This document shows, piece after piece, positions 40,797-45,885 of a DNA stretch of 64,000 nt. Below the pieces are notes generated by a model. It made no database searches. It saw only the letters and a list, made by a program, of their open reading frames with translations, and had not been told where the DNA came from. Position numbers and translations under genes: made by a program. Source of the DNA: Pandoraea pneumonica. GTDB lineage: Bacteria; Pseudomonadota; Gammaproteobacteria; Burkholderiales; Burkholderiaceae. The stretch lies in NCBI RefSeq assembly GCF_902459645.1, contig NZ_CABPSK010000003.1, positions 248,001 to 312,000 on the forward strand. The letters run 5' to 3'. The stretch's first letter is position 1. Each line of letters starts with the position of its first letter.

Positions 40797-40913
40797 GCCC
40801 ACGAGGCTCGGCGGCGCCTGAGCCTATCCCACCGATCCACGCGTCGTCGCGGGCGTACGACATCACCCGTCCCCGCCCGGCGCGCCAGTGACTCCTCCTG
40901 AACCGAGGCCGAC

Positions 40914-41732
40914 ATGAGTTATCTCCAGGAATCCAATCGCAAGGCCGTGACTGTCCCCGGGCTTGCCGACATGCGTGCACGCGGCGAAAAGATCGCGATG
41001 CTGACCTGCTACGACGCGAGTTTTGCCGCCCTGCTCGACCGCGTGGGCGTCGATGTGATGCTCATCGGCGACTCGCTCGGCAACGTGATTCAGGGCCAGC
41101 GCACCACGCTGCCCGTGACGCTGCGCGACATCTGCTATCACACCGAAACGGTGGCGCGTAACACGAGCAAGGCGCTGGTCGTGGCCGACTTGCCGTTCGG
41201 CACGTACGGCACGAAGGAACAGGCGTATCAAAGCGCAGTGGCCGTGATGCAAGCCGGTGCGCAGATGGTCAAGATCGAAGGCGGCGCATGGCTGGTAGAT
41301 ACGGTCCGCTTTTTGGTCGAGCGCAGCATTCCGGTGTGTGCGCATCTGGGGCTCACGCCGCAATCGGTGCATGCCTTCGGTGGCTTCAAGGTGCAGGCGC
41401 GCGACGAAGCAGCCGGGCAGCAACTGATCGACGACGCGCGTGCGTTGCAAGCTGCGGGCGCGCAATTGGTGGTGCTTGAGGCGATCCCGGCAGCGCTGGC
41501 GACGAAGGTGACGCCCGAGTTGCCGACGATGCCGACCATCGGCATTGGCGCAGGCCCCGACTGCGACGGTCAGGTGCTGGTACTGCACGACATGCTGGGC
41601 GTGTTCCCCGGCAAATCGCCGAAGTTCTCGATGAACTTCATGGACGGTCAGCCGAGCATCGCTGCGGCTGTGGAAGCGTATGTGCAGGCGGTAAAGCACG
41701 GGTCGTTCCCGGCGCCGGAACACTGCTTCTGA
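40914..41732 (+). CDS. panB: 3-methyl-2-oxobutanoate hydroxymethyltransferase
   Basis: A 272-residue PanB that makes ketopantoate from 2-oxoisovalerate and methylene-THF in pantothenate synthesis. The [46 protein letters not shown] and [21 protein letters not shown] segments are characteristic. It closes the hda-to-panB run. A strong bidirectional terminator follows, beyond which the composition and gene content change. Confidence 0.96.
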
Positions 41733-41754: not shown

Positions 41755-41787
41755 AAAAAGGGGCTGTCCAGTGGACAGCCCCTTTTT
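41755..41787. terminator. Bidirectional terminator between panB and the peptide cluster
   Basis: GGGGCTGTCC pairs with GGACAGCCCC across AGT, extended by five A residues pairing with five T residues. It can end panB (+) and the MFS exporter (-), whose stop codon begins at its edge. Confidence 0.93.
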
Positions 41788-42989
41788 CATTTCACATTAG
41801 CAGAACGTGTAAGTGGCCCCCATATTGCGAAGAGACCAAGGCTTATCGACGTTGCCCCAGAAATCAGAAAAACAAACTCAATGCTGGTGGCATGTGAAAG
41901 CATGCCACCGAGTAATGGGGCCAGAATCATCAGCAGGAGTTGCAGACTTCTGCCGGTTGCCGTCACGGTCCCGAGAGCTTCCCGTGGGCACTCCCGTTGG
42001 AAAGTGATCATGAGTAGCATGACTCCAAGACCGTACCCGAAGCCATTGCCCACCCAAAGCACGAGCATGTGCCACGCAGAGAGCGAAAACCCGAAGTACA
42101 CCGCGATCGCAGGAGTAAGGACTGTAAATCCAAAAAGCACACACGCGGCGAAAAGCAGCGTTGAGGAATCAAATCGCCGAACGACCGCTTTGAAAACAAG
42201 TGCGGCCAACATCGCCCCAGCGGCTGTGCAGCCGACAATCGCTCCAAACGTGCCGTCCGGATATCCGCGTGCCTGCAAGAATAGCGCCAAGAGTGCGTCG
42301 TAGAGTCCAAGAACGAAGGATTGACACGTTGCCACTGCGAACACGCGTCGCAGCAATCGGCTGCGACGAATAGTCTCGTAGAAGGTGGCCCATATCGGAC
42401 GGACGCACTTGCGAGTGTGACGACCATGCTCGCGTTGCAGATTGCACCCTGTCGAAATCAGAACGATACCTATCACGCTCAGCGCTACAGAGATGGCGAA
42501 CCCTGGAAGATGCCATCCAGCGAGAACTGCCGCGACCATTGGTGCGATCAGTTTCGTGATTTGATCTATGAGCGTAACGCGGCTCGCGTTCGCGGGGAGT
42601 TCGTCATCGGAGAGTAGATCGCGGAATAAGCGTTGCTCCGATGGCGCCGGAATGAGGTTCGCGATCCCTTTTAATAAAATACAGCCGATGAATAAGCCCA
42701 GCGTTGGCGCATGCCAAAGTGCGACTGCTGCAATCGCTCTAAAAACATAACTCCAGCGCAGCATGCGCCACGGACACATACGATCCGCGAGCGCACCAAA
42801 CCACGGCCCAGCAACGACGCCCGGTACCCCGTACAGCGCCATCGCTACCCCGATGGTAATCGGGTCGCCTCCCCAACGAAAAGCGAGGCTGCCGAAGATC
42901 AATGTGAAATCAATCCATAGAATGGCAGCGCCGAGCGCACGAGAGAGAAGCACGCGCGTGTAGGGTTGGAATGCAAATATAAATGGCAA
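41787..42989 (-). CDS. MFS transporter, putative exporter of the peptide-modification cluster
   Basis: A 400-residue, roughly 12-helix major facilitator. The motif A-like FGALADRMCPWRMLRWSYV loop follows helix 2. No close functional subgroup is recognised; its tone is that of efflux permeases found in natural-product clusters. It begins eight bases after the carbamoyltransferase stop. The first in-frame start is TTG 42989 without a clear ribosome site, so coupled translation is likely; a GTG at 42953 is the alternative. Composition is visibly less GC-rich than the flanks. Export of the mature product or self-protection is inferred from context. Confidence 0.78.
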   Translation of the reverse strand: MPFIFAFQPYTRVLLSRALGAAILWIDFTLIFGSLAFRWGGDPITIGVAMALYGVPGVVAGPWFGALADRMCPWRMLRWSYVFRAIAAVALWHAPTLGLFIGCILLKGIANLIPAPSEQRLFRDLLSDDELPANASRVTLIDQITKLIAPMVAAVLAGWHLPGFAISVALSVIGIVLISTGCNLQREHGRHTRKCVRPIWATFYETIRRSRLLRRVFAVATCQSFVLGLYDALLALFLQARGYPDGTFGAIVGCTAAGAMLAALVFKAVVRRFDSSTLLFAACVLFGFTVLTPAIAVYFGFSLSAWHMLVLWVGNGFGYGLGVMLLMITFQRECPREALGTVTATGRSLQLLLMILAPLLGGMLSHATSIEFVFLISGATSISLGLFAIWGPLTRSANVK

Positions 42990-42997
42990 GGAGGTCG

Positions 42998-44572
42998 TCA
43001 GCGTAGAGAGTGAAGGAATTGCTTCCGCAGGTAGAGTCGATTCTCAGCGACAAAGCCGTCCAGCCCCGCCTCCAGCGAGAAGCGGGCCAAGTCTGACCGT
43101 CTGTTGATAAAGCCTGCGCCTTTGAAATTCAACGAAGTATTGCAAAGCACACCAACCCCAGAGAGCTTTCTAAATTCAGAAAGAACTTCATGCAGAGCGG
43201 GATTTTCGTTGCGACTCAACGTCTGAACGCGTGCGGAGCCATCAACGTGAGTGATCGCTGGGAGTCGCGAAGTCAATACGCGATGGAAGAAGAGCATATA
43301 AGGGCTCGGCGTGGCGGGCGCAAAGTGCTCAGCAAGCTCCTCCTCTCTACATACTGGCGCGATTGGCCGAAACGACTCGCGTTGTTTGATCTGGTTCAGG
43401 CGATGGAGCGTTGCTGCTTGGAGTGGGCTGGCCAAAATGGATCGGTGACCGAGCGCACGAGGACCGATTTCGGCCTTACCGCACGCCCATCCCAAAATAG
43501 CGCCATCGAGCAGGTGTTTGGCAACATCGCCCGGTGTCGCCGACCCGACGACAAAGTCCGAAGGGCCAAAATCGTCGAGCACTAGCGCTTGACCGGCGTA
43601 GACCGACCAGCGAAGTTTGGCCGACCCTGTGAGCGAGAATTGGACATCGGCTGCAGTTCCGATGGCCGATCCTGTGTCGTTTGGACAAGGTGGGACGAAG
43701 ACGTCGGAAAACAAACCGGTCTCCAGAAGCGACGAGTTCCAGTCGCAGTTCAACGCACAGCCTCCACAAACAAGCAAAGGCGATCGTCCATCAACGAGTG
43801 GGCGGATTCTCTGGATGAAGTACTGAAAAATTGCGTCCGATATTAGACGTGCCCATCGCTTCCCTACATTCGACGTAACGCCACAGTTGTATTGGGGAAA
43901 CGAACGAAAATCAGATTTTGATAACTTTGGGAGTCTCTCCGGATTTGCGAGAAGTGCATCGATCACCTCGCGCTCCGTTGAGGTAGGTGTCTCACTCTCA
44001 TGAAATGCGGCGAGCGCCATCAACTTTCCTGCATCTGCCAATCTTATGGCCCCAGGAGGAAGGCAGAACGACTCGTCCATCAGACCATAGGCAAAGCCGT
44101 ACCGGAGTCCAGGGCCCCACATCACGTTGCTTAATACCGTGATGTTTAATTTCTCATCAATCCGATAAAACCGCCCGATATACCCTTCCCATAAGAGGGC
44201 GTAGCATGGCGTGCCTTGCGGAAATGGCGAGAGCGCATAAGCACATAAAAGATGCGAGCGCTCGTGGGATGACGACATCACTCGTACCTCACGTCCGCAT
44301 ATTGTCTTACGACAAAACGTCGGTGGTTCTAGCCCAAGGTAACCGTGGCCAATTGGTCGCATTAAGTTGCCGCGACTTTCTTCCCAACCGCTAATCGCAA
44401 GCACGTCAGGCACTGACGGTAAGTCTTCCAACGTGTGAATGATCGATGTGATATCAAGCGCAGAGTATCTGGCCCCCGAGTCTTTCTCAGTTTCATGAGA
44501 GAAAACGAGGTTCCCATCAGATACATAAGCGGCAGAACCATCGTGACCTGGTTTGAAAGCGACAATATTCAT
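42998..44572 (-). CDS. NodU/TobZ/CmcH-family O-carbamoyltransferase
   Basis: A 524-residue carbamoyltransferase. The N-terminal Kae1-like domain has HDGSAA (10-15) and an HxxxH pair (His103, His107). The C-terminal YrdC-like part carries GGCALN (270-275), EIGPRALGHRSIL (368-380), FRPIAP (401-406), HVDGSARVQ (442-450) and NTSLNFKG (478-485). Family members make carbamoyl-adenylate from carbamoyl phosphate and ATP and carbamoylate a hydroxyl group. Where most members have Asp-Gly after the HxxxH, this one reads WEGYIG (128-133), so a metal ligand may be Glu. Its ATG overlaps the dehydrogenase stop in ATGA. The substrate is unknown; a Ser, Thr or Tyr of the small peptide is one possibility. Confidence 0.9.
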   Translation of the reverse strand: MNIVAFKPGHDGSAAYVSDGNLVFSHETEKDSGARYSALDITSIIHTLEDLPSVPDVLAISGWEESRGNLMRPIGHGYLGLEPPTFCRKTICGREVRVMSSSHERSHLLCAYALSPFPQGTPCYALLWEGYIGRFYRIDEKLNITVLSNVMWGPGLRYGFAYGLMDESFCLPPGAIRLADAGKLMALAAFHESETPTSTEREVIDALLANPERLPKLSKSDFRSFPQYNCGVTSNVGKRWARLISDAIFQYFIQRIRPLVDGRSPLLVCGGCALNCDWNSSLLETGLFSDVFVPPCPNDTGSAIGTAADVQFSLTGSAKLRWSVYAGQALVLDDFGPSDFVVGSATPGDVAKHLLDGAILGWACGKAEIGPRALGHRSILASPLQAATLHRLNQIKQRESFRPIAPVCREEELAEHFAPATPSPYMLFFHRVLTSRLPAITHVDGSARVQTLSRNENPALHEVLSEFRKLSGVGVLCNTSLNFKGAGFINRRSDLARFSLEAGLDGFVAENRLYLRKQFLHSLR

Positions 44573-45627
44573 AGACGTTCAATTTGGCCCAAGAAGTGCT
44601 TCATCGCGACGATTGCATCACGTGCCACAGATCCATCGCCATAACCCGCGCCGAGAAAGAAAAGTGTCGACTCTCGTACACCATCAACCTTGAGTAGTGC
44701 GTCCGCTTCCGCATCGACGAAATATCCCGTAGGCCAAGATTGGATCCCTTGCGCAGTGCAAACCAACTGGAAGGTTTGTAAGAGACAGCCAACATCCATC
44801 AGGGCAACACGATAGGCTCTGGAGTGCGGATACTTCCACCAAAGTTTGTCGAAACGTGAAGTGATAAACACGCCGAAGGCGAGATCCTTAGCTATCGTCT
44901 GATTGCACAACACCTTGCAAATTGAGTCAGCGCTCGGCATCGGCGCGACGTACGACAATTCGTGTCGAATGGATCGATAGTGATAGATCGCTGGAGGTAG
45001 GTCCGTGACGTTGAGTGCAACTAAGTACGGCTCACTCGACTGCATCGATCCTCCAGAAGGGGACGTTCTGCGATATCCCACCGACTGCATGCCATGCTCA
45101 ACCAGATCTTGGCGTGAGCTTCCGTGCACGGCACCAAATGTTGTCCAAAGTGTGTTGGCGACTTGTTGGAGCGAGATCGCATGTCCGTCAAAAGCGCGAC
45201 AAGTTGCCCGCTTGGACAATGTCGTGTTGAAGTCTATGTCGTCAATTGGCTCGGGGGACGGGAGGGACATCACGCGACCGTCAAGAAGAAGTTCGTCCTG
45301 CGGAATGCGTTCAGAAACCGAGGCGCAATGATTTATATACCCAAGATACGGAATAGCTTCTTCCTTCGCGTCAGATCGTGGAACCCGCGTTCCGACGTGG
45401 AACATTCGAGACAAGCAATCCCATCCCCAATCGGGAGGATCGCCCTCAGCTAACAATTTGGCATTAAGCAAGTCACCATCTGCTTTACTCATGCCGCCTG
45501 TCTCGCCAGAGGAAAGGCACAGTAATCGACGTAGATGTTCCGGCTCGATTTCATACTGCTTGTGTTGCCGGTAGTCCCAGAGGATTAACTTTCCTCCAAT
45601 TATCTTTACGAAAGCAGTCGGACTCAT
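44569..45627 (-). CDS. SagB/McbC-type FMN-dependent dehydrogenase
   Basis: A 352-residue SagB-family oxidoreductase. An N-terminal domain of about 100 residues (LILWDYRQHKQYEIEPEHLRRLL) resembles the winged-helix, peptide-recognition-like part seen in ThcOx/SagB proteins. The nitroreductase fold follows, with SKRATCRAF (138-146), RRTSPSGGSMQSSEPY (186-201) and KYPHSRAYRVALMDVG (265-280). Relatives oxidise azolines to azoles in RiPPs, but no YcaO cyclodehydratase is encoded here, so the reaction must differ or partners lie elsewhere. I use the ATG at 45627, preceded by GGGGAA; a GTG at 45648 would begin inside the upstream hairpin. Confidence 0.86.
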   Translation of the reverse strand: MSPTAFVKIIGGKLILWDYRQHKQYEIEPEHLRRLLCLSSGETGGMSKADGDLLNAKLLAEGDPPDWGWDCLSRMFHVGTRVPRSDAKEEAIPYLGYINHCASVSERIPQDELLLDGRVMSLPSPEPIDDIDFNTTLSKRATCRAFDGHAISLQQVANTLWTTFGAVHGSSRQDLVEHGMQSVGYRRTSPSGGSMQSSEPYLVALNVTDLPPAIYHYRSIRHELSYVAPMPSADSICKVLCNQTIAKDLAFGVFITSRFDKLWWKYPHSRAYRVALMDVGCLLQTFQLVCTAQGIQSWPTGYFVDAEADALLKVDGVRESTLFFLGAGYGDGSVARDAIVAMKHFLGQIERL

Positions 45628-45645
45628 GCGTTCCCCGTTAAGTAG

Positions 45646-45675
45646 CACAAGGGCACTGATGCCAGCGCCCCTGTG
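45646..45675 (-). promoter_or_regulatory. Hairpin between peptide gene and dehydrogenase gene
   Basis: On the minus strand CACAGGGGCGCT pairs with AGTGCCCTTGTG around GGCATC: twelve pairs, two of them G-T. No U-tract follows. It lies between the peptide stop (45688) and the dehydrogenase start. Such hairpins between a peptide gene and its tailoring genes commonly protect the short message or lower downstream expression. Confidence 0.6.
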
Positions 45676-45687
45676 TCAGCTCGTGGA

Positions 45688-45777
45688 TTACTTTGCGTTT
45701 ACCGGTGCGGTATGAGGTGTGTTGTATGCGTCATTGGATTGATTCGAAAGCGGCGGCTCGAGTCGGATTTGCTTCAT
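45688..45777 (-). CDS. 29-residue peptide, candidate RiPP-like precursor
   Basis: A short frame, ATG 45777 to TAA 45688, encodes 29 residues: MKQIRLEPPLSN, then QSNDAYNTP, then HTAPVNAK. Its ribosome site is strong: TAAGGAG sits seven bases before the ATG. It contains no Cys; modifiable residues are Ser11, Ser14, Tyr18, Thr20 and Thr23, with prolines at 8, 9, 21 and 25. It is the first gene of a four-gene minus-strand cassette (peptide, SagB-type dehydrogenase, carbamoyltransferase, MFS exporter) and follows a terminator. I recognise no family for it. Precursor function is inferred from position, size and ribosome site. Confidence 0.68.
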   Translation of the reverse strand: MKQIRLEPPLSNQSNDAYNTPHTAPVNAK

Positions 45778-45885
45778 TTTGTTTCTCCTTAGATTGGGTT
45801 GCTTGCCTCCAGACATCGGGTCCGTTGGCGCCCCCATACTCGTCCGTCAAATAGTTGGCGGCTGTCCGATTTCGACGCGTTGTTT

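Follow-up and report, generated by a model that had tools for sequence, protein, structure and literature searches.

The window analysed here is a stretch of 64,000 nucleotides from Pandoraea pneumonica (NCBI RefSeq assembly GCF_902459645.1, contig NZ_CABPSK010000003.1, positions 248,001 to 312,000), and the element under study is a cassette of four minus-strand genes, as read from the open reading frames (ORFs) of the window, encoding a peptide of 29 amino acids, a SagB-type dehydrogenase, a NodU/TobZ-type carbamoyltransferase (CT) and a protein of the major facilitator superfamily (MFS). The cassette probably constitutes a compact, horizontally moved pathway of the type that produces ribosomally synthesized and post-translationally modified peptides (RiPPs), with the 29-residue peptide as precursor. 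The tight packing described in an earlier note on this DNA, with a gap of 60 bases, an ATGA overlap and a gap of 8 bases, was found again in the ORF list and in the sequence (Table 1). The same note placed the cassette between two terminators: the upstream one (45954-45916) was recovered by the terminator scan and belongs to the kinase gene preceding the cassette, while the downstream one can be read in the sequence and is absent from the scan list. An in-frame GTG at 45648, upstream of the SagB ATG, sits within a hairpin, so that the start is likely the ATG at 45627, which gives the 60-base gap. Pfam and NCBIfam scans name all three large proteins above cut-off, and the 29-residue peptide matches no family of either collection. 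No fifth gene lies between the flanking sensor kinase gene and panB, no Rfam family reached its gathering score in the window, and the promoter scan returned 0 sites.

Table 1. Features of the cassette, in positions of the window.
Feature	Position	Strand	Basis
Ribosome-binding site AAGGAG of the precursor gene	45785..45790	-	Sequence read; similar purine-rich site before homologous ORFs
Precursor peptide (putative), 29 aa, ATG start, MKQIRLEPPLSNQSNDAYNTPHTAPVNAK	45688..45777	-	N-terminal motif MKxIxLE(P), core LSxQSNDAY
Stem-loop downstream of the peptide stop codon, end 18 nt before the SagB ATG	45646..45675	-	Folding of 42 loci
SagB-type flavin mononucleotide (FMN) dehydrogenase, nitroreductase fold, 352 aa, WKY motif K265-Y266	44569..45627	-	TIGR03605, PF00881, alignment
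NodU/TobZ-type CT, 524 aa	42998..44572	-	PF16861 179 bits, PF02543 88 bits; ATGA overlap with SagB
MFS exporter (predicted), 400 aa, TTG start	41787..42989	-	PF07690 (MFS_1) 96 bits
Palindromic terminator common to the cassette and the convergent panB	41755..41787	.	Sequence read; not in scan list

The first question concerns the peptide. Small ORFs lying up to 500 bases upstream of SagB homologues were scored by features of the leader and of the ribosome-binding site only (loci are designated below by L numbers and genomes by G numbers). A top-scoring tiny ORF was found upstream of the SagB homologue at 82 of 90 loci, L032, L033 and L094 being kept among the 90, and upstream of none of 997 control ORFs, which were mechanical ORFs of at least 300 amino acids from the same loci; both the leader score and the motif classes used below were devised after the first peptides had been seen, and the control gauges the false matches of the score. 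In five Pandoraea sequences the mean DNA identity of the peptide gene is 0.70 against 0.39-0.44 in the flanks, gaps being counted as differences, and the identity at the three codon positions is 0.77/0.86/0.44, which is the signature of a protein. Furthermore, the ratio of the proportions of nonsynonymous (pN) and synonymous (pS) differences is 0.22 in Pandoraea (6 sequences), 0.39 in the Pseudomonas class with an AurF-type gene (54 sequences) and 0.23 in a third class (4 sequences). The N-terminal half of the peptide is conserved while the core and the tailoring gene vary, and the residues after the core are variable.

A second line of evidence comes from the precursors of L187 and L188, from two other genera of the family, in which one ORF contains two complete leader-core units: KIKLEPTLSFQSNDAYNKPVG and KIALEPALSFQSNDAYNKPVG in L187, QKINIEPTLSFQSNDAYNSL and QKIAIEPTLSFQSNDAYNTL in L188. 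The units diverge mainly at silent sites (pS 0.96 and 0.78, pN 0.08 and 0.08, for L187 and L188). Repeated cores in one precursor are a familiar trait of RiPPs. The features by which RiPPs are recognized in genomes are found here together, namely an encoded precursor, a conserved recognition part (MKxIxLE), a core matched to the enzymes, selection at the protein level and tandem units.

The core was then compared with the gene content of the loci, of which three kinds can be distinguished, all with the peptide, SagB and an MFS protein, and with a CT, an AurF-type diiron protein (PF11583, 72 bits in one representative) or nothing as second enzyme. The CT loci come from Pandoraea, other Burkholderiaceae, one unclassified proteobacterial bin and some Pseudomonas; the AurF-type loci comprise most of the Pseudomonas loci fetched and some from Burkholderiaceae. 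In a first count, for which leader and ribosome-site features alone decided the choice of peptides and the motif classes were set down after the peptides had been viewed, the core motif was SN[DN]AY in 18/18 CT loci and AN[LMW] in 67/67 AurF loci; among the loci without a second enzyme (MFS only), AAF is present in 4/6 cores and neither motif in 2/6. Two further loci that match the rule, L190 and L191, had already been seen when the classes were defined. Six loci fetched later also match (L233, L234 and L236 with CT; L235, L237 and L240 with AurF), and these six alone are out-of-sample for the motif rule. In total, SN[DN]AY accompanies the CT at 21 of 21 loci and AN[LMW] the AurF-type protein at 72 of 72. 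Before the first count L022-L024 (identical to L034-L036), the YcaO clusters L032 and L033, and L094 were dropped, the last having a SagB ORF call that starts far inside the gene and no peptide reaching the score; L238 and L239, set beside L113 and L062, were not counted as new, and L030, L186, L188, L234 and L236 were retained despite a CT that is interrupted or in several frames. L036, with an SNDAY core and a piece of CT after SagB, is excluded from the 21 because its contig ends there. At the level of single residues, L10, S14, N15, A17 and Y18 are invariant in 19/19 CT-class peptides (18 loci and L036), and E7, A12 and N13 in 69/69 AurF-class peptides.

The inheritance of the genes was followed as well. 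Pairwise identities of SagB and CT are correlated with r = 0.96 over 15 loci, and none of 2000 permutations gave a value as high. Moreover, the SagB tree (44 rows) places L028 and L029, which belong to two genomes of a single genus, within the CT clade, and no CT match was found in either whole genome. Their peptides, MKQVKLEPIHTSYSFVARQV and MTQVNLEATHSLFENILAVHPA, have kept the leader and lost the SNDAY core, a pattern to be expected of a leader that serves SagB and a core that serves the CT. The comparison of loci shows the peptide to be, at the level of sequence, a conserved protein product which is inherited with SagB and whose core is matched to the tailoring enzyme, and its role as the presumed substrate of the pathway is well supported. 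That role was proposed in the earlier note, which named homologous loci lacking a small frame as evidence against it. The frame is conserved and present in all 21 counted CT loci, its core tracks the tailoring gene, and a tandem duplication is present in two precursors.

Two observations on the distribution of the classes may be recorded here. In Pseudomonas lactis DSM 29167, one contig carries a CT-class and an AurF-class locus (L041 and L111) about 100 kb apart, each with the matching peptide. The Pseudomonas CT cassettes L038 and L039 have an extra gene between SagB and CT, which in L039 is a fusion of tetratricopeptide repeats (TPR) and a methyltransferase of 605 amino acids and in L038 an ORF of the same cluster; this gene is a further tailoring variant.

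Several facts weigh against the peptide as precursor of a core-matched pathway. The match of core and enzyme is partly phylogenetic, since the classes are clustered on the SagB tree, on which all of them need 5 changes, and the locus counts are not counts of independent events. The loss of the CT in L028 and L029 is a single event in one genus, where the MFS protein changed too. In 5 of the 21 CT loci (L030, L186, L188, L234 and L236) the CT is interrupted or lies in several frames; these broken genes may reflect decay or assembly error, and one of them, L188, is also a tandem-precursor locus. The absence of the CT in L028 and L029 strengthens the proposal, and the five frame breaks weaken it, about equally. 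The SagB gene itself is spread over two frames in L236 and L240, the core of L031 is MANW (ANW) with no AurF homologue in the fetched region, and the leader of L038 and L039 deviates (MRKANLQ). No peptidase gene is present in the cassette. The leader would be bound, probably by the N-terminal segment of SagB (~120 residues), a role assigned to the segment from its position; the first 95 residues, compared with 22 stretches taken as PqqD-type recognition domains (L250, visibly misread, was kept), gave no profile match (probability 0.0). Finally, the hairpin that follows the short ORF would also fit attenuation.

This hairpin bears on an alternative explanation of the whole arrangement. A strong stem-loop, differing in sequence from locus to locus, follows the peptide stop codon with z < -2 in 40/42 loci (30 mononucleotide shuffles each). 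In 19 measured loci, 8-31 nt separate its end from the SagB ATG, and in L025 (9 nt) and L037 (8 nt) the structure could touch the ribosome site. A short ORF placed 60 bases upstream and followed by such a structure recalls a regulatory leader peptide, i.e., a nascent-chain sensor or attenuator, in which case SagB, CT and MFS protein would act on a free small molecule. Arrest peptides can conserve amino acids too, and the residue conservation of an arrest peptide could track the product class. This explanation is nevertheless unlikely. A T-rich tail follows the stem-loop in only 2/42 loci, and the distance of its end from the SagB ATG likewise speaks against a regulatory leader, as does the conservation of the N-terminal half when core and tailoring gene change. 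The in-frame duplication of the whole leader-core unit, with both copies constrained as protein, is difficult to reconcile with a regulatory role of the peptide. If the ORF is a precursor gene, the hairpin possibly raises the precursor mRNA over the enzyme mRNA. As a side observation, the hairpin loop of the Pseudomonas AurF class is often TGCCGGC though the stems differ (9 of 17 folded loci, by eye: L042, L043, L061, L084, L085, L098, L101, L104 and L107), and this loop is possibly a recognition site for a protein or an RNase.

It is also conceivable, and again improbable, that the peptide acts as a carrier or scaffold and that the product is a small molecule made of no more than one or two of its modified residues, as in the pyrroloquinoline quinone (PQQ), mycofactocin and pearlin pathways. 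An MFS exporter in a cassette devoid of a peptidase would suit such a role, and so would the very short cores with few invariant residues and the variable residues after them. However, the five residues invariant in every CT-class peptide exceed what a one-residue product needs, and the cassette has no amide-forming gene.

From a biochemical perspective, the enzyme next to the peptide gene is unusual for the company it keeps. SagB/McbC enzymes normally oxidise azolines formed by YcaO cyclodehydratases, and the Lys-Tyr pair is catalytic in azoline dehydrogenases. The SagB of the cassette scores 103 bits with TIGR03605 (cut-off 78.4) and 57 bits with PF00881, aligns with CyaGox (5lq4) and McbC, and shares K265-Y266 of the WKY motif and the RRxxPSxG motif with all members of an alignment of 37 sequences (37/37). 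The absence of a YcaO gene beside the cassette, pointed out in the earlier note, extends to the whole genome of the window, in which the YcaO search gave 0 matches, and to 8 of the 12 other genomes searched (9 of 13 in all). Turning to the peptides, 82/95 are free of Cys, 12/95 have none of Cys, Ser and Thr beyond residue 7, and three Pseudomonas precursors (L087, L090 and L106) contain none of these residues anywhere; the peptide of the window contains Ser and Thr. If such precursors are substrates, the SagB family is not limited to azoline oxidation. True YcaO-SagB clusters are found in two other Pandoraea, L032 (G022, with ABC transporter genes) and L033 (G016), and likely make azole peptides; their SagB branches far from the SagB family of the cassette. 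A conventional thiazole/oxazole-modified microcin (TOMM) pathway, i.e., azol(in)e formation with the YcaO encoded elsewhere and SagB, its WKY motif retained, as a standard azoline dehydrogenase, was therefore rejected as very improbable, given the missing YcaO, the precursors devoid of Cys, Ser and Thr and the distant SagB of the real YcaO clusters.

The CT is typical of its family. NodU/TobZ enzymes carbamoylate hydroxyls of natural products, and the protein of the cassette carries both Pfam halves over cut-off (Table 1), matches GdmN, the novobiocin carbamoyltransferase and TobZ, and has H103, H107 and the GPRAL and CNTSL residues invariant in 11/11 homologues. No Lys is conserved in the core of the cassette peptides, so that Ser14 or Tyr18 is the likelier carbamoyl acceptor.

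Dehydrogenation, carbamoylation and export are inferred from the enzyme families, and the pathway could run as follows. Residues 1 to ~9 (MKQIRLEPP) would form the recognition segment bound by the SagB-type enzyme and residues ~10-19 (LSNQSNDAYN) the core, from which the flavin enzyme would take two hydrogens. Because there is no YcaO, this would not be azoline oxidation; the preferred guess, by analogy with flavin-dependent cyclodipeptide oxidases, is an alpha,beta-desaturation, most likely of the residue with a large hydrophobic or aromatic side chain, which would be Tyr18 in the window and Leu, Trp or Phe in the sister classes. The CT would then carbamoylate the core, most likely on the hydroxyl group of one of two residues that do not vary within the CT class, Ser14 or Tyr18. 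Host proteases would remove the leader and the MFS protein would export the product, while the hairpin may hold the precursor mRNA above the enzyme mRNA. The exact residues modified and the order of the steps are guesses.

Comparison with known systems places the cassette near several of them. The dehydrogenases of TOMM and linear azol(in)e-containing peptide (LAP) pathways (SagB, McbC, CyaGox/ThcOx) share with it the nitroreductase fold, the FMN-enzyme family, the Lys-Tyr motif and a TIGR03605 score above cut-off; the cassette differs in having no YcaO partner and a very small precursor, and in some members azoline chemistry is impossible. The TIGR04510/TIGR04511 peptide modification system, which has a larger precursor, includes a SagB relative named peptide maturation dehydrogenase. 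TIGR04511 is in fact the best NCBIfam model for the SagB of the cassette, but the score of 124 bits is below the cut-off of 240, whereas a true member, L196, scores 548 and has the cyclase-like partner (TIGR04510) that is absent from the neighbourhood of the cassette; membership was rejected.

The following likenesses are drawn from the available sections of the cited papers, and the absences hold for those sections. In the std cluster of Streptomyces thermodiastaticus, the NodU-like StdF carbamoylates a Lys of a ribosomal peptide, and an MFS permease is present (PMC13174530, a 2026 preprint); unlike in the cassette, the CT is fused to a peptidase, the target is Lys, YcaO-TfuA and MNIO proteins take part, and no SagB appears in the gene list. 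Crocagin is likewise a ribosomal peptide with a very small product and a carbamoyltransferase, CgnI, in its pathway (PMC10070186), which differs by a dioxygenase and the peptide-binding CgnB/CgnE and in whose description SagB is not mentioned. A SagB-like enzyme or nitroreductase near a small precursor is found in OS3 of Pseudomonas sp. Os17, in which its authors detected neither a sagC nor a sagD homologue (PMC7726476), and in a graspetide group (PMC8939145); unlike the cassette, the former has a folded precursor of 85 amino acids, an acetyltransferase and a putative peptidase, the latter has ATP-grasp enzymes, and for neither is a carbamoyltransferase or AurF gene mentioned. The functional analogy proposed for the SagB of the cassette is with cyclodipeptide oxidases, AlbAB among them, flavin enzymes that perform alpha,beta-dehydrogenation of amino-acid residues (PMC11055893, PMC11760959) and that differ from it in forming filaments and acting on cyclic dipeptides. 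No paper on this peptide-SagB-CT/AurF system was found in the open-licence PubMed Central literature, in agreement with the earlier note, which knew of no named RiPP class with this gene set.

The best reading of the loci is an apparently undescribed RiPP family, with a YcaO-free SagB dehydrogenase as the primary enzyme and interchangeable tailoring enzymes. A wider proposal, put forward tentatively, is that they represent a new RiPP class, horizontally spread over Burkholderiaceae and Pseudomonas, in which the YcaO-independent SagB-type flavin enzyme would be class-defining and desaturate a precursor residue, and in which one leader type would feed interchangeable, core-matched second enzymes. 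Precursors of this class would have mostly 20-33 residues, and the second enzyme would be a CT, an AurF-type diiron oxygenase, an added methyltransferase or none. The SagB subfamily comprises about a hundred loci with their own tiny precursors and mostly no YcaO in the genomes searched; since some of these precursors have no azole-capable residue, chemistry other than azoline oxidation is suggested. The gene set is minimal and easily expressed and comes with built-in comparative controls (CT, AurF and no tailoring; one-unit and two-unit precursors), which make reaction and specificity directly testable. If the proposal is true, it would offer a natural plug-in system for carbamoylated or N-oxygenated dehydropeptides. 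Precursors so short easily escape gene callers, and the precursor family may be largely unannotated.

As regards the position of the cassette in the genome, its G+C content is 0.50-0.59 against ~0.62 around it, and it lies between the kinase gene and panB (40914-41732, plus strand), which is convergent with it. A full-length kinase match was found in 27 of the 31 other Pandoraea genomes searched, and in 26 of these 27 the kinase gene has a convergent panB as its neighbour at a distance of 63-771 bases, panB of L223 being outside the fetched stretch. The kinase stop codon (46032) and the end of panB (41730-41732) mark the points where homology to the three nearest relatives ends. The adjacency of kinase and panB in 26 Pandoraea, together with the drop in G+C, indicates that the cassette is an inserted unit. 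Within the genus, the SagB-CT-MFS set is present in G000 (the genome of the window), G002, G006, G011 and G030, interrupted in G007 and split across two contig ends in G028. Matches were obtained in 71 plasmid records, all below 60% identity, and the matches listed (15) do not exceed 32.5%.

Three minor observations concern the same region. In the three nearest Pandoraea relatives (L199-L201), ~570 other bases, resembling a different small gene, occupy the same spot, and the junction of kinase gene and panB is perhaps a hotspot of insertion. Transposase genes of the ISL3, IS21 and integrase-core types break up the cassette of G007 (L030), in which the peptide ORF is intact. An ORF of 286 amino acids antisense to panB (40863-41723, minus strand) is open in the window, has 50-81% identity to relatives (tblastn) and is probably a by-product of panB codon usage.

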